Shown here piece by piece: positions 46,703 to 58,774 of a stretch of 64,000 nt of DNA. The first letter of the stretch is position 1. Every line of letters starts with the position of its first letter. Under the pieces are notes generated by a model. That model worked only from the letters and a program-made list of their open reading frames with translations. It was not told the origin of the DNA and did not search any database. This stretch comes from Pontibacter indicus (GTDB lineage: Bacteria; Bacteroidota; Bacteroidia; Cytophagales; Hymenobacteraceae): contig NZ_FTPP01000001.1 of NCBI RefSeq assembly GCF_900156345.1, positions 744,001 to 808,000 on the forward strand, read 5' to 3'. The position numbers were made by a program, and so were the translations under genes.

Positions 46703-47191
46703 ATGCAACGACTGTTAGTCATTTGCCGCCACGCCGAGCCAAATGATCCTTTCCCACTCCAGCCTGACTTTGAACGCGAACTCACGAAAAACGGGCATCA
46801 TCAGGCGCGTATTACCGGGAAATGGCTCCGCGATACATTTCAGAAGGTAGATGCTATTCTAAGCAGCCCTGCCCCCAGAGCCGGCCTCACGGCTAGGCTG
46901 CTGGCCGAAAAACTTTATTTTGATGAAGAGCAGATCGTCTACGAACCCGATTTCTACAATGCGCGGGAAAATGTGCTTCTCAATGTGCTGGCTAATCTGC
47001 CCGACCACGTGACGCGGGTGCTGCTGGTGGGCCACAACCCTGGTATAACCAGTCTGGCACGTTCGCTTACGGGTGTGCACCTGGGCTACCTGGAGCCCGC
47101 AGGGGCCTATGCCATCAAGCTAGACCTGGACACTTGGCAGGATTTACACCTTAAAAGCGGAAAGTTGGAAAAAGAGTTTACACAACCTTAA
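46703..47191 (+). CDS. sixA: SixA-type histidine phosphatase
   Basis: 162 residues of the histidine phosphatase superfamily: catalytic VICRHAEPND (6-15), LSSPAPRAGLTARLLAE and VLLVGHNPGI, without a capping insertion, as in SixA. SixA removes phosphate from phosphohistidine on HPt domains or PTS proteins. Its place just upstream of a CheA-containing cluster makes an HPt target conceivable, but there is a 98-base gap to parA and the link is inference. Confidence 0.88.
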   Translation: MQRLLVICRHAEPNDPFPLQPDFERELTKNGHHQARITGKWLRDTFQKVDAILSSPAPRAGLTARLLAEKLYFDEEQIVYEPDFYNARENVLLNVLANLPDHVTRVLLVGHNPGITSLARSLTGVHLGYLEPAGAYAIKLDLDTWQDLHLKSGKLEKEFTQP

Positions 47192-47289: not shown

Positions 47290-48036
47290 ATGAAAACCAA
47301 AATAGTAGCCGTTATTAACCAAAAAGGCGGCACAGGCAAAACCACCACCACCATCAACCTGGGCAGCGCCCTGAGCAAACTGGGGCATAAGGTCCTGCTG
47401 GTAGACCTCGATCCGCAGAGTAATTTATCCTATAGCCTCGCCGTCTCCTCGCCGGATCATACGCTGGCCGAAGCTTTTTTAGGGACATATGCCTTTAAAG
47501 ATATTCTTGTCGAAAAAGACGGTCTGTGGGTCGCGCCAGGCTCCAATGAACTAGTGGACGTGGAGATCTCATTGGTGGCGCAGCCAGACCGGGAGCAGTT
47601 CCTGAAAACCATGCTGCAGCAGGCCAAAGGCTTTGATTATGTGCTGATTGACTGTCCTCCTTCACTTTCAGTACTAACCCTTAATGCGCTGACTGCGGCC
47701 CACGAAGTACTTATACCTTTGCAAATGGAAGTGCTCACCCTGCAGGGCCTGGACCAGATCATGCAAACGATCCAAAAAGTAAAAAAAGCGTTTAACCCGA
47801 AACTTAAAATTAAAGGCATCGTAGTGGTCATGTTTGATATGCGTCGCAAGCTGAGCCAGGAAGTACTCGCATACCTGCATGAGAACGTCAAAGAGAGGAT
47901 TTTCAAGAGTCAGATCAGACTGAATGTGAAGCTGGCCGAAGCGCCCTCGTTCGGACAAAGCGTGCTTGATTATGACAGCACCTCGAACGGAGCGAAGGAT
48001 TACGCAGCACTCGCCGCCGAATTCAGTCAGGTATAG
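47290..48036 (+). CDS. Orphan ParA-family ATPase
   Basis: 248 residues. Deviant Walker A KGGTGKTTTTINLG (12-25), Walker A' LLVDLDPQSNLS and Walker B DYVLIDCPPSL mark a ParA/Soj-type ATPase. There is no parB or parS-like repeat beside it. The next genes form a chemosensory operon; ParA-type proteins (ParC, PpfA) place chemosensory arrays in other bacteria, so that role is likely here. The C-terminus ends in CAG GTA TAG, an AGGTATA-derived stop. Confidence 0.9.
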   Translation: MKTKIVAVINQKGGTGKTTTTINLGSALSKLGHKVLLVDLDPQSNLSYSLAVSSPDHTLAEAFLGTYAFKDILVEKDGLWVAPGSNELVDVEISLVAQPDREQFLKTMLQQAKGFDYVLIDCPPSLSVLTLNALTAAHEVLIPLQMEVLTLQGLDQIMQTIQKVKKAFNPKLKIKGIVVVMFDMRRKLSQEVLAYLHENVKERIFKSQIRLNVKLAEAPSFGQSVLDYDSTSNGAKDYAALAAEFSQV

Positions 48037-48168: not shown

Positions 48169-51100
48169 ATGGCCTTAGGTAAAAATTTGAAGCTGAGCAA
48201 AGACAAGCTCATTAGTGACGTAGAAACCAGCCAACCAGAAAAGACAACTCCGCCGCGCGCAAAAGCGAAACAGCAGGCGCCTGCTGCCACTACTTCCGTG
48301 GCAGAGAAAGCGGAAGCGTCTCCCTTGAAACAGGAAAGCGCCATTGCTACTCCTCCGGTCTCCCGGGCTGAAGCTCCTGATGCTGCCGCCAAGAAGGAGG
48401 CAGGCAATGGAACACTTGCTGTGAAAAGTGCGCCCAACGGAAAGCAAAGCCGCAAGCAGGTGCTGCCTTCCAGCCCGGAGTACATCAGCGAGCAGCTAAA
48501 CAAGGTGTTGTATGCCCTCGATGCCTTTAAAAAAGGCGACATCTCAGTTCGTCTGACAAAACAAAACGATGACATCTTCGCGGAGATCGCCGAAGCCTAC
48601 AACTCGATGGTGGAAATGATCGGTGGTGTAGGTGGGGAGGTGTCCCGTATCTCGAAAGTGGCCGGTGTGGAGGGTAACCTGAAAGCCCGTGCCTCGGCCG
48701 AGAACGCTTCCGGTTTCTGGAAGGACATGATCAATAACATCAACGGTCTGGTAGATTCGATCGCGGTTCCGGTACTGGAAGTAGGCAAGGTACTAAAGAA
48801 CATCTCCCGCGGTAACCTGGATGAGACATTCCAGATTCCAGTGTCCGGTGACTTCAAGGTCATGGCCGAAACCATCAACCGCACAATCGATAACCTGAAC
48901 CTGTTTGCTGGTGAGGTAACGCGTGTGGCACTCGAGGTGGGTACAGAGGGTAAGCTGGGTGGCCAGGCATCAGTACCAAACGTGGCCGGTGTTTGGAAAG
49001 ACCTGACTGATAATGTGAATACGATGGCCAGCAACCTGACCTCACAAATGCGCGACATCTCGAATGTGGCGACGGCGGTGGCGAAAGGTAACCTGGCCCA
49101 GAAAATATCCGTGGATGTGCGCGGTGAGTTTGCCCAGCTGAAGGACAACATGAACCAGATGGTGGACTCGCTCAATATCTTCGCTGACGAAGTAACCCGT
49201 GTGGCCCGTGAGGTAGGTACCGAAGGTCGCCTCGGTGGCCAGGCCAAAGTGCCGAACGTAGGCGGTGTTTGGAAGGACCTAACCGATAACGTGAACACGA
49301 TGGCCAGCAACCTGACCTCTCAGATGCGCGACATTGCGAACGTATCGACAGCGGTGGCGAAAGGCGACCTGACGCAGAAAATCACGGTAAACGTGCGCGG
49401 TGAAATGGCCGAGCTGAAAGATATCATCAACCAGATGGTGGACTCGCTCAACATCTTCGCAGGTGAGGTAACAAGGGTTGCCCGTGAGGTGGGAACAGAA
49501 GGTAAACTAGGCGGACAGGCTGCGGTGCCAAATGTAGAAGGAACCTGGAAAGAACTGACCGACAACGTGAACCTGATGGCCGGTAACCTGACCCTACAGG
49601 TACGTGACATTGCTGAAGTAGCCACCGCAGTGGCGAAAGGCGACCTGACTCAGAAAGTGTCAGTGGACGTGAAAGGGGAGCTGGGTGACTTGAAAGACAT
49701 CCTGAACGAAATGGTGGACCGACTGAATGTGTTTGGCGCGGAAGTAACCCGTGTGGCACGTGAGGTAGGAACAGAAGGTATACTGGGTGGTCAGGCCAAC
49801 GTGCCAAACGTAGCCGGCATCTGGAAGGAGCTCACCGACAATGTGAACTACATGGCCTCCAACCTGACCCTGCAAGTGCGTGACATTGCGAATGTTGCGA
49901 CAGCGGTGGCGAAAGGTGATTTGAGCCAGAAGATCACGGTGAATGTAAAAGGCGAGCTCGCTGACCTGAAGGAGAACCTGAACCAGATGGTGGACTCCCT
50001 CAACATCTTCGCTGACGAAGTAACAAGGGTGGCCCGCGAAGTGGGTACGGAAGGTCGTCTTGGCGGCCAGGCATCGGTGCCAAATGTAGGCGGTGTTTGG
50101 AAGGACCTGACCGACAACGTGAACACCATGGCCTCTAACCTGACCCTGCAGGTACGCGACATTGCCAATGTAGCAACCGCGGTGGCGAAAGGTGATCTGG
50201 CGCAGAAAGTGTCTGTAGATGTGAAAGGTGAGCTGGGTGAGTTGAAGGAAAACATCAACCGCATGGTGGACTCCCTGAACATCTTTGCCGGTGAGGTAAC
50301 CCGTGTGGCGCTTGAAGTGGGTACCGAGGGTAAACTGGGCGGGCAGGCGACTGTACCGAATGTTGGCGGTGTTTGGAAAGACCTGACTGACAATGTAAAC
50401 ACCATGGCCTCTAACCTGACTACGCAGGTACGAGGTATAGCCAAAGTAGCCACTGCTGTGGCGAAGGGTGACCTGAGCCAGAAGATCACGGTAGAGGCCC
50501 GTGGAGAACTCCTTGACTTGAAAGAGAACCTGAACCAAATGGTGGATTCTCTAAACATATTCGGTGACGAAGTAACCCGCGTTGCCCGCGAAGTGGGTAC
50601 CGAAGGGAAACTGGGCGGACAGGCCAACGTGCCGAACGTAGCCGGTACCTGGAAGGATCTAACGGACAACGTAAACTACATGGCTTCTAACCTGACCTCT
50701 CAGGTACGTGATATCGCCAAGGTAGCGACTGCGGTGGCGAAAGGCGACCTGAGCCAAAAAATTACGGTGGAAGCTCGCGGCGAGATCTTAGACCTGAAGG
50801 AGAACCTGAACCAGATGGTGGACTCCCTCAACATCTTCGCTGACGAAGTAACGAGAGTGGCCCGCGAAGTGGGTACGGAAGGACGCCTCGGCGGCCAGGC
50901 CAACGTGCCGAAAGTACGCGGTACCTGGAAGGAACTCACTGACAACGTGAACACCATGGCCTCCAACCTGACGCTGCAGGTACGCGACATCGCCAAAGTA
51001 GCCACTGCCGTAGCGAAAGGCGACCTGACACAGAAAGTGTCTGTGGATGTGAAAGGTGAGCTGAACGAGTTGAAGGAAAACATGAACCGCATGGTGGACT

Positions 51101-52734
51101 CACTCAACGTATTTGCCGGTGAGGTAACACGTGTGGCGCTTGAAGTGGGTACCGAGGGTAAACTGGGTGGCCAAGCCAACGTGCCGAACGTAGGCGGCAC
51201 CTGGAAAGACCTGACTGACAATGTAAACACCATGGCCTCTAACCTGACAACCCAGGTGCGAGGTATAGTACGCGTAGTAACAGCCGTATCAAAAGGTGAC
51301 CTGACGCAGAAACTGACCCTCGAAGCAAGAGGAGAGGTGGCCGAGCTGGCCGACACGATCAACACCATGGTGGTGGACCTGAACCGCCTGGCGGGTGAGG
51401 TTAGCCGTGTGGCAAGAGTAGCGGGTGTGGAAGGAAAACTGACTGAGCGTGCCACTCTGCAAGGTGTAGGCGGCAGCTGGAAAGAACTGGTGGATACCCT
51501 GAACGACTTGCTCGAGTCCATCGTGACGCCGGTACTGGAAGTATCACGCGTGGTGCGTGCCATCTCAGAAGGTGACCTGACCCAGAAAGTAGAAGCCCAT
51601 ACCGCAGGAGACATCCTGGACATGGCCAATGCCCTGAACCTGGCAGTTGACAACCTGAACGCTCTGTTGGGTGAGATCAACGACTCATCGCTGGTAGTGG
51701 GAAGCTCCTCCGAAGAAATGGCTGACAAAGGTCTCGAAATGAACCGCGTAACGCTCGATGTGGCACTTGCCATGCAGCAAATGGCGGAAGGTGCCCAGAA
51801 TCAGGCCCTCAAGACAGACCAGGCCTTCAAGCTGATCGAAGAGATCATGAAAACGACGAAGGACACGGCAGCCCGTGCGGAAGTAGTGAACAAATCCGCT
51901 ACCCTGGGTGAGGAAACTTCGCAATTGGGTCTTAAAACAGTGGCGGAAGTGGTGAAGAACATGGAAGAAATCTCCAGTTCAGCCTCCCTGACCTCTAAAA
52001 CGATTGAGGTACTCAGCGCCCGTTCGCAGGAGATCTCCAAGTCTCTTGGTGTGATCACCGACATTGCCGCGCAGACCAACCTCCTTGCCCTGAACGCAGC
52101 CATTGAGGCGGCCCGTGCCGGCGAAGCAGGACGTGGTTTCGCGGTAGTAGCCGAAGAGATCCGCAAACTGGCCGAAGGATCACGCAAGTCTGCAAACGAG
52201 ATCAACACATTGGTAGAAGACGTGAAAAAAGACACGGCCTCTGCCGCGATGGCGATCTCGACCATGGAAGGCCGCGTGTTAAAAGGAAAGAATGCCACCT
52301 TCGAGGCATCCGGTGCCTTCAAAAACATTGCAGCATCCAGTGGTGAGACGCTCCGTTCAGCCCAGGATATCCTGACAGCCACGGAAGTGCAGAAATCATC
52401 GATCGGTGACGTAGTGAAGTATGTGGAGGAAGTGGTGGCCATTGCCGAGCAAACGGCATCCGGTACACAGCAGGTAGCGAGTACAGCCAAACAGCTGTCT
52501 ACTTCGATGCAGGAACTTACTTCATCTTCTCAGAACCTGAACGACATCGCGGCTGATCTGCAGATCAGTATATCCGCCTTCAAACTGGTGGACGGTAACC
52601 TGGTGTTCAACCACAGCCCGAACAACCGTCGCCTGGCTTCCATGCCAGCCAAACCCAAGCAGAAACAATTGACTGGCAATGCGCGTCTAAGCTCGGTTGG
52701 CTCCAGAAACAGAAACGGCGAGGACAATAACTAA
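48169..52734 (+). CDS. Giant soluble poly-HAMP chemoreceptor (MCP)
   Basis: 1521 residues with no membrane segment. Residues 1-105 are Ala/Lys/Pro-rich and disordered-looking. About 108-1174 consists of roughly 23 HAMP-like units of about 46 residues; nine pairs form near-identical 92-residue repeats beginning [16 protein letters not shown] (276-1103). About 1175-1460 is a methyl-accepting signalling domain with the canonical tip [20 protein letters not shown] (about 1299-1318) and [18 protein letters not shown]. No CheR-binding pentapeptide ends the protein. It should signal to the adjacent CheW/CheA in the cytoplasm. What it senses is unknown, since there is no PAS, GAF or other input domain. 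Confidence 0.95.
48994..51477 (+). repeat. Nine tandem 276-bp repeats encoding HAMP pairs
   Basis: Period 276 bp (92 residues) measured from the codon of W276 through the nine WK[DE]LTDNV units. Copies differ mainly at third positions and a few residue positions, so both recent duplication or conversion and purifying selection are likely. Diverged half-units flank both ends. Confidence 0.95.
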
Positions 52735-52748
52735 ACCGTTGCGGACCG

Positions 52749-53348
52749 ATGAAAGAGAAGACAAATAAGAAAGAGGGGACCGATGCAGCTGAGGCAACCG
52801 TATCCGGACCAGATAAGGCAGCTGAGACTGCCCTAGCTTCCGCTAAAGAGGGTCAGGCCTCACCGGAGGCCGCTAAGGAGGAGATGATCCATCTGATCGT
52901 TTTTAAGCTGGGCGCGGAGGAATACGGCATCAAGATAGACCAGGTGAAAGAGGTGACGGTTACACCAAGTGTGACCCGAATGCCTCGAACACCCGACTTT
53001 ATCAAAGGTGTAGCCAACATCCGGGGCGACATTATCGCCATCATGAACCTGGAGGAGCGTTTTGGTATACGATCCGTTCCATTGGCTAATGACGTGAACC
53101 CGCACATTACTTACACCCTGGTGATAGAAGCCAAGGAATACAGTATCGGTGTGATTGTGCGCGAAGTGCCCCAGTCCCTGAATCTTTCCATGACCAAGAT
53201 CGACAAGACGCCCTCGTTCCTGCAGGACATCAATATCCACGAAAACTACATCGAGGGTATTGCCAAGGTAAACAACCGTCTGATTATTGTACTGGATATG
53301 TACAAAATCCTGACCCAGGACGAGATAAGGGAGTTGAAAAGTAACTAA
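52749..53348 (+). CDS. cheW: CheW coupling protein with N-terminal extension
   Basis: 199 residues. The first 45 are low-complexity and charged; the CheW fold follows (LIVFKLGAEEYGIKIDQVKEV, PDFIKGVANIRGDIIAIMNLEERF, NNRLIIVLDMYKIL). It links receptor tips to CheA. It starts 15 bases after the receptor stop, so it is in the same operon. The extension resembles the disordered N-terminus of the receptor and could be a linker or docking tail. Confidence 0.93.
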   Translation: MKEKTNKKEGTDAAEATVSGPDKAAETALASAKEGQASPEAAKEEMIHLIVFKLGAEEYGIKIDQVKEVTVTPSVTRMPRTPDFIKGVANIRGDIIAIMNLEERFGIRSVPLANDVNPHITYTLVIEAKEYSIGVIVREVPQSLNLSMTKIDKTPSFLQDINIHENYIEGIAKVNNRLIIVLDMYKILTQDEIRELKSN

Positions 53349-53383: not shown

Positions 53384-53746
53384 ATGAAAAGAATACTGAT
53401 TGTAGATGACTCCTTCTACATGCGCACCATGCTCAAAAACATGCTAACAGATGCAGGTTACGAGATAGTTGGAGAGGCGCCGAACGGACAGACAGCGCTG
53501 GAACTGGCAAAAGAAACCAATCCGGACCTGATCACCCTTGATGTGATCTTACCAGACAACACGGGGCTTGATGTGCTGAAGGGCATTAAGGCGGAGCAGC
53601 CGGATATGAAGATCGTGATTGTTAGCGCTGTAGGCCAGGAAGTGATTGTGAATGAAGCGCTTGAAAATGGGGCTCTTTCATATATTGTGAAGCCTTTCTC
53701 TGAAGAGAAGGTGCTGGAAGTGGTGAAGAAAGCCCTGGAAGAATAG
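53384..53746 (+). CDS. cheY: CheY-like single-domain response regulator
   Basis: 120 residues: one receiver domain with D8-D9 (LIVDDSFYMR), phosphoacceptor D53 (LITLDVILPD), S81 and K103 (IVKPF). No output domain. It is the only intact receiver in the cluster and so the likely main phosphate acceptor from CheA. In the absence of flagella its target is unknown; T9SS gliding or another process is possible. Confidence 0.95.
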   Translation: MKRILIVDDSFYMRTMLKNMLTDAGYEIVGEAPNGQTALELAKETNPDLITLDVILPDNTGLDVLKGIKAEQPDMKIVIVSAVGQEVIVNEALENGALSYIVKPFSEEKVLEVVKKALEE

Positions 53747-53800: not shown

Positions 53801-54922
53801 TTGAAAGGACAGAATAGTAAGCTTAAGGTGCTTATTGCGGACGGATCAAGTCATGCACGCCTGGTGCTCGAAAGCATCCTCAGCTGCTCACCTGATCTGG
53901 AAGTGGTAGGCCTGGCATCGGGCCAAACGCAAGTGCTCGAAACGTTGCGCCACCGAAAAGCGGACGTTATACTTGCTTCGGCTGATCTTCGGAAGAACGA
54001 GCATTTATTGGTCTTCAAGCAAATCTTCATCGAATGCCCGACACCGATCGTGATGCTGGTTGAAAGAGAGCAGCTTAGTCTTGAACTTTTGAAAGAGGCC
54101 ATCGATCTGGGCGTATACGGGGTGATTTTAAAACCGGGTTCTGGAACAAGGCCCGCCTATAGAACCAAGGCAGAGGAGATTTGCCGGAAAGTGATGGCGG
54201 TGCGGGAAACAGAATACTGGGATCCTGTAAAGCGCCTAAGCTTGCTGGGTGAAGAAATACAGATTTTGCCACAGGCGGAGCATAAGAAGACCCGGAATGC
54301 GACGGCAGACACTATCATCGTCATGGGGGCGTCAACAGGCGGAACACAGGCGGCGGAGCAGATTATCCGGCAATTGGATCCGAAACTGAAGGCTTCTGTT
54401 TTAGTAGCCATTCACTTGCCGCCGAAGTTTACGCACAGTTACGCGCGCAGACTCAAGGGGATGACAGACCTGACAGTGATTGAAGGCCGTACCGGCTTGA
54501 TACCAAAACCCGGCCATGTGATCATAGCCCCTGGAGGTAGAAATATGGTGGTACACAAAGTGATGGGAAATGCCGCTAACCTCAAGATCGGCTTTAGTGA
54601 TGACGACACCGGGCACGATCTGCCGTCAGTTGATCAGCTGATGATGACAGTGGCAGAAAGTGGCGTAAAGCGTGTGATCGGTGTGATACTGACTGGTATG
54701 GGTAAAGACGGCACAGCAGGCGTCCGCGCCATATCGCAGCGCAAAAGAGGGCACGTCATCGCACAGGACGAGGCTTCGTCGGCCATTTTCGGGATGGCCA
54801 AATCAGCCATAGAGAGTGGCAATACCGACATCGTGCTGCCTTTGGCAGAAATAGCCCCATACCTGAACTGGTATGTGGCAGCAGAACAGCAGCAAGTCAG
54901 TACGACTGACGTGAATTCATGA
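53801..54922 (+). CDS. cheB: CheB methylesterase with degenerate receiver domain
   Basis: 373 residues from a TTG start, supported by AAAGGAGA 9 bases upstream. The C-terminal esterase is intact: S178 (VMGASTGGT), H205 (VAIHLPPKF) and D303 (LTGMGKDG), so it should remove methyl groups from, or deamidate, receptor glutamines. The N-terminal receiver (6-130) is degenerate: the acidic pair reads ADG and the phosphoacceptor position is Ser (about 60, ILASADLRK), while K111 remains. Phosphorylation control by CheA is therefore unlikely. It overlaps cheA by 4 bases. Confidence 0.92.
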   Translation: MKGQNSKLKVLIADGSSHARLVLESILSCSPDLEVVGLASGQTQVLETLRHRKADVILASADLRKNEHLLVFKQIFIECPTPIVMLVEREQLSLELLKEAIDLGVYGVILKPGSGTRPAYRTKAEEICRKVMAVRETEYWDPVKRLSLLGEEIQILPQAEHKKTRNATADTIIVMGASTGGTQAAEQIIRQLDPKLKASVLVAIHLPPKFTHSYARRLKGMTDLTVIEGRTGLIPKPGHVIIAPGGRNMVVHKVMGNAANLKIGFSDDDTGHDLPSVDQLMMTVAESGVKRVIGVILTGMGKDGTAGVRAISQRKRGHVIAQDEASSAIFGMAKSAIESGNTDIVLPLAEIAPYLNWYVAAEQQQVSTTDVNS

Positions 54923-56553
54923 AATCGAGAGAGCAGGAGTATAAAGAGATATTTATAGCAGAAGCGCTGGAGTATTTTGATGCCCTAAACAGGCTCATCA
55001 GCGAACTGGAAAAAAAGCCGCAGGACGATCAGGTGCTGGCGGAGATATTCCGTATGCTGCATAACCTGAAGGCGAATGCGAAAGCAATCGGCTATCTCCA
55101 GATCTCCGATGTATCGCACAAACTCGAAACCGCGTTTGGCCTGATCCGCAACAAAGAGCTGAGCTTCAGTGACGAAGTGGTGGGCGTGCTCTTTGATGGC
55201 ATCGACCTGCTCGGTGAGCTGATCAAGAGCATCGACAGCGAGCAGCAGGTTGAGATCGATCCGGTCCTGATCCGCAACCTCGATATCATCGTGGACAGCC
55301 TTTCGGACAGTACCGTGGAACTGGCCAAGGTGCAGAAATTCAGCACCTCCCGCAACCTCACGCTTTCCGACCTGATCTACATCCAGGTGAAGAAGCTGGA
55401 CCACCTCATGAACCTGGTGGGCGAGCTCATCATTGACCGGGACCGTATTCTTTCGCTTAGCCGCGAACTCGACAACGATGAGCTAAAGATGGTGAGTTCG
55501 CATCTGTACCGCATTACAGAGGATCTGCAGTACAGTGTGATGGACGCGCGCCTGGTAAGCATCGGAACGCTGTTCAACAAATTCCCGCGGGTAGTGCGTG
55601 ATATCTCTAGTGCGGAGAAAAAGGAAGTCAACCTGGAGCTGAGTGGTCAAGATATTCAGATTGACCGCAATATTCTGCAGATCATGACGGACTCGTTGTT
55701 GCACCTGGTGCGTAATGCGATCACGCACGGCATCGAGAAGCCGGAGTTGCGCGCAAAGGCTGGTAAACCGAAAGCCGGCTCGTTGCAGCTGTCGGCCCGC
55801 AGCGACCGCGAAAGCGTGATCATCACCCTGACAGACGACGGCAAAGGGATAGATGTCGCCAAAGTGAAAAAGGCTGCTGTTGAACGCCATCTGGTAGCGG
55901 CAGATGTAGCGGACAGTCTTCCGGACTCAGAAGTATACTCTTTCCTGTTTGAGCCCGGCTTTTCGCTGGCCAAGGAGGTAACTGAATTTTCTGGTCGCGG
56001 AGTCGGGCTGGATGTCGTAAAAAATGCGATTGACTCCATTGGGGGCCGCATACGTATAGAGTCAGAAAAAGGAAAAGGCACCTCTTTTATCCTGCAATTG
56101 CCGACTTCGATTGCGGTAAAAGGAGCCCTGTTATTCGAAATAGACAGTATTTTTTATGCCATCCCGTTGATCCACACCGACTCTGTGGTGGCGCTCGACA
56201 AAGACGAACTCCACGAAGTGGGAGAGGTGCTGGTCGCTGACATCAAAGGAGAAACAGTGACGGTCGTATACCTGGACGAGCTCCTGAACATGGAAGAAAG
56301 CCAGATGCGCCTGGGAGACAAAACAAGATTGAAGGGGCAGGTACAGAACATCATTATTGTTTCGTACAACAACCGCAAGCTCGGGCTGATTGTAGACAAG
56401 CTTTACCGGCAGCAGGACATTGTGGTAAAACCCCTGAGCAAACCGCTGGATAGCATTGATTTGTATGGCGGGGTTACGCTGCTAGGCACCGGCAAGGTAT
56501 GCCTGGTGCTGGACGTGCCTGCCATCACGAAGTACTTTGTGAACAAAAGATGA
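54919..56553 (+). CDS. cheA: CheA histidine kinase lacking a P2 domain
   Basis: 544 residues. HPt domain with the phospho-His at about 48 (IFRMLHNLKANAKAIGY, where LKGxA is usual), then a short linker with no P2 (CheY/CheB-binding) domain. Next come the dimerisation helix (KLDHLMNLVGELIIDRDR), the ATPase with N box HLVRNAITHGIE, G1 DDGKGID and G2 FSGRGVGLDVV, and the CheW-like regulatory domain. Its start overlaps the cheB stop (ATGA). It phosphorylates CheY, presumably by direct contact from the HPt domain. Confidence 0.95.
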   Translation: MKSREQEYKEIFIAEALEYFDALNRLISELEKKPQDDQVLAEIFRMLHNLKANAKAIGYLQISDVSHKLETAFGLIRNKELSFSDEVVGVLFDGIDLLGELIKSIDSEQQVEIDPVLIRNLDIIVDSLSDSTVELAKVQKFSTSRNLTLSDLIYIQVKKLDHLMNLVGELIIDRDRILSLSRELDNDELKMVSSHLYRITEDLQYSVMDARLVSIGTLFNKFPRVVRDISSAEKKEVNLELSGQDIQIDRNILQIMTDSLLHLVRNAITHGIEKPELRAKAGKPKAGSLQLSARSDRESVIITLTDDGKGIDVAKVKKAAVERHLVAADVADSLPDSEVYSFLFEPGFSLAKEVTEFSGRGVGLDVVKNAIDSIGGRIRIESEKGKGTSFILQLPTSIAVKGALLFEIDSIFYAIPLIHTDSVVALDKDELHEVGEVLVADIKGETVTVVYLDELLNMEESQMRLGDKTRLKGQVQNIIIVSYNNRKLGLIVDKLYRQQDIVVKPLSKPLDSIDLYGGVTLLGTGKVCLVLDVPAITKYFVNKR

Positions 56554-56565
56554 GGAACAGAGGCG

Positions 56566-57213
56566 ATGGATTACGGAAATTATAACACGATTGACATGAT
56601 GGATACACATGTAACCGAGTTGGAAAAGGATATTATCAAAGAAATCCTGAACATAGGACTGGCTCGTGCCGCCGATTCTTTTGCCACCATTGCCAAAGAT
56701 AAGGTGATGCTCAAGGTGCCCGATGTGCAGCTGATAGAGGTGAAAGAGCTTATTTCGATCATCTCCAAGTATGAAGACTCACACTATATCATTCAGTCCG
56801 ATATAAAAGGTGACTTCAACGGCGCCACGCTAATGCTTTTCTCCGATGAGCACATCAACCTGCTCTCCAACGTTTGCCTGAGTATGCTTAACGTGCAGAA
56901 GGGCGAACTGAATGTGATGCAGGAGTCTCTGCTGCTCGAGATCAGCAACATCATCACCGGCGCGCTGGTTACGCAATTGGCCAATATCCTGAAAAGCAAC
57001 ATCTACGGTTCGCCACCAAAAGCGCCGAAAAGCCACATCGCCAACTCACTGAAGGACATACTGGTTCAGCACCCGCTTTTCCAACCCCTCGTGTTCACCG
57101 TTATCACCAAGTTTCAGCACAATTCAAAAGACGTCGAGCTGCCGCTGCTGCTGTTCTTCGACACGAGCACCTTGATTAAAATGCTCGACATCATCAGAAC
57201 CTTCAAGGTATAA
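56566..57213 (+). CDS. cheC: CheC-type CheY-P phosphatase
   Basis: 215 residues, 12 bases after cheA. Both CheC active-site motifs are present: D22-E26-N29 (KDIIKEILNIGLARAA) and S122-E126-N129 (ESLLLEISNIITGAL). It should dephosphorylate CheY-P and so reset the signal. No cheD is adjacent. The stop is made by AAG GTA TAA, an AGGTATA copy, giving the end FKV. Confidence 0.9.
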   Translation: MDYGNYNTIDMMDTHVTELEKDIIKEILNIGLARAADSFATIAKDKVMLKVPDVQLIEVKELISIISKYEDSHYIIQSDIKGDFNGATLMLFSDEHINLLSNVCLSMLNVQKGELNVMQESLLLEISNIITGALVTQLANILKSNIYGSPPKAPKSHIANSLKDILVQHPLFQPLVFTVITKFQHNSKDVELPLLLFFDTSTLIKMLDIIRTFKV

Positions 57214-57442: not shown

Positions 57443-58774
57443 ATGAACGCTTTAGGAAGACACATTTTAGTTGAGTTTTACGATTGCTCTCCTGAACTGA
57501 TGAACGATGTGATCCACATCGAAAACAGCATGGTAGCCGCCGCCGAGACGGCCGGGGCTACTGTCATCAACAGTACGTTCCATCACTTTTCGCCTTACGG
57601 CGTGTCCGGAGTGGTGGTGATCCAGGAAAGCCATCTGGCCATCCATACCTGGCCTGAGTATGGCTATGCAGCCGTAGATTTGTTTACCTGTGGCGACTCC
57701 GTTGACCCGTGGGTTTCTTACCTCTATCTCAAAGAGGCCTTTCAGTCAGGACACGGCTCTTCGATGGAGCTTCGCCGTGGGCAGTTGAGTCTCCTGAAAC
57801 GCAACGACTTTAACCTGGAGACGCTGCGTGATGCTACTGCCAAAACAATTGAAACGAATGGCGCTATCACGCGAGATGTATGGTTCACCGAGCGCGACGA
57901 GAATATTGCCTTGTCATTGAAGCACACAGGCAATCAGCTTTACAAGAAGGATTCTGAATACCAGAGAGTAGAGGTATACGAAACGCTTGCCTACGGCAAC
58001 ATGCTGACATTGGACGGCATGGTAATGTGCACCCAGAAAGATGAGTACGTGTACCATGAAATGATTACCCATGTGCCCATGTTCAGCAACCGCGCGGCAA
58101 AACGTGCATTGGTGATTGGAGGAGGTGACGGCGGCACGGTGCGCGAATTGTTGCGCCACGAGCAACTGGAGGAAGTTACGCTGGTGGAGATTGACGAACT
58201 AGTGATCGAGGCTTGCAAGCTCCATCTGCCTGAAACGGCTGTGTCGTTCGAAAACCCGCGTCTGAACCTGCTGATTGAGGATGGCATCAAATACATTAAA
58301 GAGTGTGCCGACGAGCATTACGACCTGATCATTGTTGACTCTGCTGATCCGGTTGGCCCAGGTGAAGGCTTGTTTACGGCAGCCTTTTACAAAGAAGTGT
58401 ACCGTTGCCTGACCAAAGACGGTGTGATGATCACGCAGAGCGAATCACCACGCTTCAACTCGGCCGTGTTCGTGGAGATTTACGACACTTACAAAAAGAT
58501 ATTTGGGCAGGATAAGGTATACTGCTACCTGGCAGCTATACCTACGTACCCGACCGGTACATGGAGTTTCTCGTATTCAGCTAAAGGAAATGCCAGTCCT
58601 TTGCAATTCGATGCGGAAGCAGCGGCAGCTTTCTCTAAAAAAGAAAGTCTCAAGTATTATAATGAAGCAGTGCATTCGGCTGCCTTTGCGCTTCCTAACT
58701 TTGTGCGGGAGCTATTAAACACAAAACCTGAACATGTAACTGATGAGTACTCAGCAGAACCAATCAACCAATAG
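57443..58774 (+). CDS. speDE: Fused S-adenosylmethionine decarboxylase / spermidine synthase
   Basis: 443 residues. Residues 1-115 are a prokaryotic SpeD: the self-processing Ser is S63 ([15 protein letters not shown]), with [10 protein letters not shown] nearby, giving a pyruvoyl enzyme that makes decarboxylated SAM. After a linker, about 145-430 is Spe[36 protein letters not shown] (about 213-227) and [16 protein letters not shown]. It joins the aminopropyl group to putrescine to form spermidine. Fusion would channel the intermediate. It overlaps the next gene by 32 bases. Confidence 0.95.

Follow-up and report, generated by a model that had tools for sequence, protein, structure and literature searches.

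According to the available excerpts of the papers cited, Aer2 of Pseudomonas aeruginosa combines five HAMP units with a haem PAS domain, and opposite signals can come from its different HAMP units (PMC3570549). Group III kinases act in the osmotic response, and their HAMP repeats, nine units in the case of CaNik1p, control output (PMC3848655); as excerpts of two reports describe these kinases, transmembrane regions are not found in them (PMC7643160, PMC3848655). In Rhodobacter sphaeroides, PpfA is chromosome-associated and binds the N terminus of TlpT, again as given in excerpts (PMC3964821, PMC10924463). We describe here a chemoreceptor of Pontibacter (Hymenobacteraceae) in which exactly 23 HAMP units precede an intact MCP hairpin, and for which a search of open-licence PMC papers, mostly titles and the starts of abstracts, returned no previous description. 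The initial annotation of the locus had stated that poly-HAMP proteins elsewhere carry far fewer units. This stands for Aer2 with five and the fungal kinase with nine (PMC3848655, in excerpt), but not for two kinase-like proteins from the same taxonomic order, L178 and L179, which have 25 and 23 units; nor is 23 unique among relatives of the receptor itself, which reach 31.

The receptor gene (48169..52734; this and all coordinates below are on the forward strand, +) lies in the window, the whole stretch of 64,000 nucleotides analyzed here, and encodes a soluble protein of 1521 amino acids as defined by open reading frame, Pfam and unit anchors. Pfam matched 11 HAMP_2 and 10 HAMP stretches plus one MCPsignal domain (PF00015, E 1e-39). 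The MCP kinase-control hairpin (residues 1166-1473, 51664..52587) has its tip EAARAGE at residue 1313, with 45/50 tip columns invariant among 28 representatives, and equals the hairpin of PDB 2ch7 in length (291 versus 291 residues) with one compensated 3-residue shift; a 48-residue C-terminal tail follows (52588..52731). No membrane span was found in the whole receptor, where the top 19-residue hydropathy was 1.35, and no input domain, PAS included, was matched in it by Pfam. These results bear out the initial annotation, which had read an intact MCP tip and neither a membrane anchor nor a recognized input domain. A Pfam match to ATG17_like (99.4 against a cut-off of 43) was set aside as probably reflecting helical likeness, and Nup49 and other sub-cut-off or coiled-coil matches to the receptor were likewise set aside. 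In all 39 Pontibacter genomes searched the poly-HAMP receptor is the only MCP and, because the genus has this single MCP, deletion of one gene would remove the entire input side.

Directly upstream of the receptor gene lies a gene for a ParA-like ATPase (47290..48036), whose che-linked group differs from that of the Soj-type ParA also encoded in this genome. It is preceded by a gene for a SixA-like phosphohistidine phosphatase (46703..47191, below the NCBIfam cut-off), which is present in 40 of the 41 loci with ParA and in none of the 40 without. Downstream follow genes for CheW (52749..53348), a CheY-like single-domain response regulator (53384..53746), CheB with receiver and methylesterase domains (53801..54922), CheA (54919..56553) and a CheC-like CheY-P phosphatase, also below the NCBIfam cut-off (56566..57213). 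CheW and CheA genes were found downstream of the receptor in 81/81 loci, and CheB had no match in 24 of the 81. The genome has three CheR-domain matches, of which the two with listed places both lie outside the window, and GldL was present in 18/18 genomes searched.

The receptor begins with a 17-residue tag (48169..48219), for which a PpfA-like contact with ParA is proposed from their co-occurrence. The motif MALG(K/N/D)N tracks ParA in all 79 judgeable loci of the 81 (41 with both, 38 with neither, none discordant; L091 and L095, cut at a contig end, were left out), a count that does not amount to 79 tests because one joint loss and one distant protein may explain the poly-HAMP clade. Outside the family, 13/13 MCPs with ParA upstream begin MALG[ND]N, in 7 genera and 4 families, with 7 of these cases falling in one genus; the survey comprised 47 outgroup MCP rows, among which L139 and L142 have no N terminus, L122 is broken and L111 has no upstream room. 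The ParA tree was built without L110 and L175, and G104, from the genome search for che-type ParA, was left out of the tag check. Likeness of the tag to the N terminus of ParB is loose (LGKNL versus LGRGL in the genome's own ParB). Relatives without tag and ParA have a longer, basic C-terminal tail. The initial annotation had mentioned neither ParA nor the tag, nor the odd unit counts or the lack of any other MCP. It is quite improbable that the ParA-like gene is an unrelated neighbor, with the tag having a different function, for instance in binding a chaperone or kinase: one tagged genome, G322, whose MCP (L134) starts MALGKNSQKETLA, does have no che-type ParA, but the association of tag and ParA spans several families, and a same-group ParA is encoded elsewhere in the genome for three of the four tagged MCPs without a local one.

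Between tag and hairpin, a low-complexity tail (residues 18-107, 48220..48489) leads into the HAMP rod, in which anchors placed 12 units of type A, every 92 residues from residue 122 to 1134, and 11 of type B, at the same spacing from residue 184 to 1104. The two types alternate strictly, one unit per 46 residues, and profiles made from the units themselves read the rod as an ABAB...A string of 23; the HMM count proposed in the initial annotation gave 21 stretches with Pfam and 23 with these profiles, in agreement with its estimate of about 23. Its nine near-identical pairs with five or so diverged units were also found as described, at residues 248-1075 and with five diverged units. An N-terminal cap, A1-B1-A2 (residues 108-245, 48490..48903), diverged from the core and strongly conserved across species, is followed by the core of 17 units from B2 to B10 (residues 246-1027, 48904..51249, supported by TRF and anchors) and by the last three units, A11-B11-A12 (residues 1028-1165, 51250..51663), which form the joint to the hairpin. 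A HAMP_2 match just N-terminal of the hairpin is also present in PAS-bearing kin. The tandem repeat was reported by TRF as 276 bp x 8.5 with 76% matches, and the units show a helix-gap-helix pattern, with 9trk and 3vol as solved homologous chains. AlphaFold models from the cap to B3 and from A11 to the hairpin were too poor to use (mean pLDDT 44.7 and 54.8), as is perhaps expected for a coiled-coil dimer modeled as a single chain.

An error in repeat number, which the initial annotation had named as a ground for refutation, is unlikely because the longest exact internal repeat in the receptor gene is 62 bp and 23 units also occur in Pontibacter relatives that were assembled separately; collapse or expansion of the array was therefore rejected for the window gene. 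Several draft genomes seem broken within the array and show short open frames there, for example G005, G018, G033, G041 and G050.

Repeat number was compared across relatives, as had also been proposed, in 87 open reading frames; L033, L050, L053 and L099 were excluded by the filter as having no intact frame. Two of the 87 are identical copies (L115 of L076, L117 of L063) and three are not full length (L091 and L095 at contig ends, L122 broken). In the remaining 84 full-length arrays (82 distinct), unit number ranged from 17 to 31 and was always odd, and the 46-residue frame was departed from once, in L116, where a 3-residue indel led to a recount of 21 units. Array length has thus been altered among relatives by pairs of units alone; an odd count would follow automatically, however, were units copied as 276-bp pairs. 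HAMP arrays of around 30 units were reportedly noted by Dunin-Horkawicz and Lupas in 2010. The hairpin tree requires 17 changes of unit number, with few branches well supported. Concerted evolution was not seen in the window protein, where 0/9 core pairs were nearest to a pair of the same protein; in some relatives up to 6/10 pairs were nearest within their own protein. Over 170 pairs from 18 proteins, the nearest pair was in the same protein for 35 and in another species for 125, with 10 ties.

These changes in number bear on the idea that the rod is a spacer, setting the distance from a nucleoid-bound end to the CheA/CheW plate or between two sandwich plates, with the stimulus entering elsewhere, at the N-terminal cap, the hairpin or CheA. 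Variation in unit number and its repeated change on the tree would agree with such a role, as would the two-plate sandwiches formed by cytoplasmic arrays (PMC3964821, in excerpt). In 9/9 tagged outgroup MCPs scanned (of 17), PAS stretches occupy the position of the rod, in tandem arrays of 2 to 13, as if length outweighed the kind of module; such long arrays would fit a need for length, and the spacer reading is therefore given more weight. Even so, we consider it rather unlikely. Core pairs are under purifying selection (median dN 0.15, dS 1.3), which weakens the idea of a pure spacer, and connector residues are near-fixed, seemingly beyond the needs of a coiled coil; across 738 B units, 34/46 positions are fixed at >=95%. 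That the frame was broken only once likewise argues against a spacer, although in the kinase-like L178 and L179 the third unit is followed by a step of 51 residues.

A second possibility, likewise rather unlikely, is that the rod directly senses a physico-chemical condition such as osmolarity, ionic strength or crowding, in the manner of the poly-HAMP part of fungal group III kinases. The receptor repeat shares 71% identity with PDB 9trk ('histidine kinase,Gcn4p') across 157 residues, and by sequence its units form the same 92-residue pairs as in Nik1/group III kinases, whose HAMP repeats control output in the osmotic response (PMC3848655, in excerpt). The idea of the rod as a sensor gains support from this homology and from its occupying the place where tagged kin have PAS domains, but the sensing mechanism of group III kinases is itself described as unsettled (PMC8156855, in excerpt). 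Alternatively, and with as little likelihood, a ligand or a partner protein is bound by the cap A1-B1-A2, while the remaining rod merely relays. Invariant columns number 30/46 in A1 and 36/46 in A2 (28 representatives) versus 20/46 in core unit A3 (23 sequences), in favor of a special role for the cap; B2, however, is conserved equally to B1 (36 each), and because diverged first units also occur in the Nik1-like proteins L178 and L179, the cap may be purely structural.

The reading we favor, and to which we give about an even chance, is a ParA-positioned, PpfA/TlpT-like cytoplasmic array of one receptor type, in which the poly-HAMP rod would sense or relay in line. Receptor dimers would stand as long rods, with CheW and CheA held at the MCP-tip end and the N-terminal tag at the far end binding, on the nucleoid, the ParA-like ATPase encoded in the operon; the array would be placed and divided between daughters as in the PpfA/TlpT system. 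The sole chemotaxis receptor of this soil bacterium is probably attached to its chromosome by way of a partition protein. The 23 alternating units between both ends would form an in-line conformational chain, in which an intracellular condition may act on many B units together or on the conserved cap; A/B packing would shift, and the shift would reach the tip and alter the activity of CheA and then CheY, with the GldL gliding motor perhaps as output. Because A and B would hold opposite states, units could be gained or lost only as BA pairs if output is not to be inverted. Binding to ParA, placement on the nucleoid, opposite states of A and B, a sensing or relaying role of the chain, its stimulus and the final output are what we infer.

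A more encompassing reading, which we judge unlikely, would posit a class of cytoplasmic arrays with one receptor each and take a chain of near-identical, bistable HAMP pairs as itself the sensor, the odd number as a functional parity rule, and the anchoring as swapped once or twice between tag and C-terminal tail. If this were true, rod length would evolve freely in sign-preserving pairs only, and the ParA-binding tag would have been exchanged with a C-terminal tail of basic, histone-like character gripping the nucleoid directly. Two questions meet in this receptor: what poly-HAMP arrays sense, a question also posed by group III kinases, which several fungicides depend on, and by what means a soluble receptor is positioned in the absence of a membrane. 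Natural variants of 17-31 units provide a ready series on the role of length and odd parity.

Compared with known systems, the receptor shares with Aer2 (Pseudomonas aeruginosa, Vibrio) a soluble MCP with consecutive HAMP units, and the Aer2 model is the best NCBIfam match to the whole receptor, far under its cut-off (322.8 versus 1200 bits); it differs in that no PAS match corresponding to the haem PAS domain was found. With fungal and bacterial group III (Nik1-type) kinases it shares 92-residue A/B HAMP pairs in odd counts, but those proteins are histidine kinases with receivers, whereas the output here is an MCP hairpin. FrzCD of the gliding bacterium Myxococcus xanthus, as excerpts describe it, is also a soluble MCP with HAMP before the hairpin and a basic tail, and is bound to the nucleoid, as proposed here for the receptor (PMC12077210, PMC5716589), but it has two HAMP units and binds DNA directly via its N-terminal tail, unlike the ParA-linked tag here and the basic C-terminal tail of ParA-less relatives. 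TlpT/PpfA of Rhodobacter sphaeroides, again as described in excerpts, likewise places a soluble MCP and a ParA-like ATPase in one che operon. TlpT, at 567 aa versus 1521 aa here, is too short for such a rod, and R. sphaeroides also has membrane receptors, in contrast to the single MCP in Pontibacter; where TlpT contacts PpfA, the receptor described here carries its conserved N-terminal tag, a putative correspondence drawn from co-occurrence.

The receptor gene (48169-52734, + strand, 1521 residues) returned 11 HAMP_2 stretches, 10 HAMP stretches, and one MCPsignal stretch in a Pfam scan. Two motif anchors, A (KGDL-like, n = 12) and B (WKDL-like, n = 11), each recurred every 92 residues, and their spacing gave 23 HAMP units in strict A/B alternation with a period of 46 residues. 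Profiles made from the receptor's own units yielded the same string, ABAB...A, with 23 units and no insertions; both approaches thus agree with the initial annotation, which had counted about 23. The nine near-identical pairs and diverged units that it described were also recovered, as nine core pairs share 67 to 89% protein identity and the pair at each end of the array diverges from the core. Nor is a membrane span expected, in keeping with the soluble receptor proposed, because 19-residue hydropathy peaks at only 1.35. Codon comparison of the core pairs (36 comparisons) gave a median dN of 0.15 and dS of 1.3; therefore, the copies are old and under purifying selection. The longest exact internal repeat in the gene was 62 bases. 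Among 28 representatives, invariant columns in the N-terminal cap numbered 30/46 (A1), 36/46 (B1), and 36/46 (A2). B2, at 36/46, was as fixed as cap B1, and core A3 reached only 20/46 in 23 sequences. Across 738 B units, 34 of 46 positions were at least 95% fixed. The kinase-control hairpin is presumably of the 44-heptad class. It equals the hairpin of PDB 2ch7 in length (291 vs 291 residues), although one arm contains a 3-residue shift that is compensated. From helix lengths, we estimate a 23-unit rod of about 55 nm followed by a hairpin of about 22 nm.

Unit number was then compared across relatives. Full-length, in-frame arrays were found in 83 of 87 counted ORFs, and all 83 were odd: 17 units (1 ORF), 19 (2), 21 (43), 23 (20), 25 (5), 27 (2), 29 (8), and 31 (2). 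The other four were two ORFs cut at contig ends, one whose frame is broken, and the 21-unit L116 with its single 3-residue indel. Full-length arrays with an odd number amounted to 84/84, two of which duplicate others. Unit number changes fast, as identical hairpins occur with 19 and with 21 units; a quick hairpin tree, in which 8 of 66 inner branches are well supported and the window receptor groups among Pontibacter rows, required 17 changes. Two readings of the parity remain. It may be mechanical, as A and B would be too unlike for recombination, so that copies are gained or lost as 276-bp pairs. Alternatively, it may be functional: single HAMP units of Aer2 are reported to yield opposite outputs (PMC3570549), and by analogy one added unit would invert the signal. 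The present data do not separate these readings. L122 (G188), a poly-HAMP MCP of another family, has a frame break within its array that may be real or a sequencing error.

The che operon runs on the + strand as SixA-like, ParA-like, receptor, CheW, CheY, CheB, CheA, and CheC-like. CheW, CheY, CheA, and CheC-like genes followed the receptor in conserved order in all 81 loci examined. A CheB match at 1e-8 was absent in 24 of these (L035, L045, L047, L050, L052, L054, and 18 Hymenobacter loci); adaptation through the operon CheB therefore seems dispensable. Three CheR-domain matches were found in the genome, and the two with listed positions lie outside the window. The SixA-like phosphohistidine phosphatase gene (46703-47191, + strand), upstream of ParA, had counterparts in 40/41 ParA-bearing loci vs 0/40 ParA-less loci, and CheA phosphate is a possible target of its product. 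This receptor is the sole MCP of its genome, and a single MCP was present in 39/39 genomes of its genus. One search with residues 1061-1521 matched 61/61 family genomes and 10/38 other genomes of the order. By its motifs, an ORF of 443 aa at 57443-58774 is a putative fusion of AdoMet decarboxylase with spermidine synthase. The motor protein of gliding and type IX secretion, GldL, was encoded in 18/18 genomes. Since the CheY-like domain of PorX is described as binding GldL in Flavobacterium (PMC10951265), gliding is a possible output of the receptor pathway.

To relate the receptor N-terminus to ParA, 81 loci (80 relatives and the window) were compared. The tag M.LGKN(L/M)K..K(D/E)KLI and a ParA ORF were both present in 41 and both absent in 40; with L091 and L095, cut at contig ends, left out, the judgeable loci comprised 41 with both, 38 with neither, and 0 discordant. 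The untagged loci, from Hymenobacter and close kin, form a group (support 87) together with Adhaeribacter and one further genus, both of them tagged, and their state may thus reflect a single joint loss. Outside the family (44 loci, 47 MCP rows), ParA lay upstream of 13 MCPs from 7 genera and 4 families, 7 of them from one genus, and all 13 began with MALG[ND]N. The other 34 rows had a MALG.N start in 4 and no such start in 30 (four incompletely judgeable). No ParA was found within the fetched stretch near the four tagged MCPs. Three of their genomes (G077, G137, and G126) carry a che-type ParA elsewhere; these score 222-240 bits, where other ParAs reach 190 or less, and they cluster with che-linked ParAs (98/95), separate from the Soj group (100/100). 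None was found in the fourth genome, G322. Che-type ParA was also absent from G052, G053, G057, G058, G302, and G188, six genomes whose poly-HAMP receptors lack the tag. The chromosomal ParB starts with a loosely tag-like LGRGL stretch, a resemblance that may serve as a lead only.

Poly-HAMP receptors without tag and ParA had longer, more basic C-terminal tails, with a net charge of at least +10 in 42/42 untagged (40 distinct) vs 2/41 tagged. Could such a tail offer a second route to the nucleoid? FrzCD reportedly binds the nucleoid through a basic tail, although that tail is N-terminal (PMC5716589). As the untagged set consists of Hymenobacter, close kin, and L123 from another family, the pattern represents one or two independent cases. 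The tail is not a general substitute, because none was found in untagged PAS-bearing outgroup receptors. L123 (G302), a 25-unit MCP of a distant family, has a tail of net +25 and lacks both tag and che-type ParA.

Nine of 17 tagged outgroup MCPs (L106, L107, L110, L112, L136, L141, L146, L150, and L151) were scanned with Pfam, and each contained 2 to 13 PAS stretches, one HAMP_2 stretch, and MCPsignal. The rod thus occupies the position of the tandem PAS domains in these kin. This fits a sensory role, and it also fits a preference for long arrays irrespective of the module used. The tagged, ParA-linked L112 (G092; 2131 residues, 13 PAS stretches) is another extreme domain array in this receptor family. 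Overall, we favour a model whose binding, localisation, conformational, and stimulus steps we infer: ParA would place the receptor array, and the rod would sense or relay an internal condition. Structure models of receptor parts were too weak to inform mechanism.

The link between ParA and che operons as such is already known, since ppfA is reported as widespread in them (77/206 species; PMC2829493). In R. sphaeroides, the chromosome-associated ParA-like PpfA is described as binding the N-terminus of the soluble receptor TlpT (PMC3964821, PMC10924463), an arrangement resembled by the ParA-like gene and N-terminal tag of the window locus. For the rod, the top solved-structure match was PDB 9trk ('histidine kinase,Gcn4p'; E 1.8e-82; 71% identity across 157 residues), and by its sequence the repeat is that of Nik1. 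The initial annotation had stated that known poly-HAMP proteins such as Aer2 and fungal group III kinases carry far fewer units, which does not extend to two proteins of the same order: L178 (G064; open frame of 2110 residues) and L179 (G083; 2051 residues), putative hybrid kinases by their receiver-like C-terminal ends, have 25 and 23 units. Both follow A(BA)n, have diverged first units, and contain a step of 51 residues behind unit three. The count of 23 is thus not extraordinary by itself; the unusual part is fusion to an MCP hairpin. In CaNik1p, the nine HAMP domains are described as forming four pairs of 92 residues and one additional unit (PMC3848655); the receptor, with its 23 units, shares this pairing.
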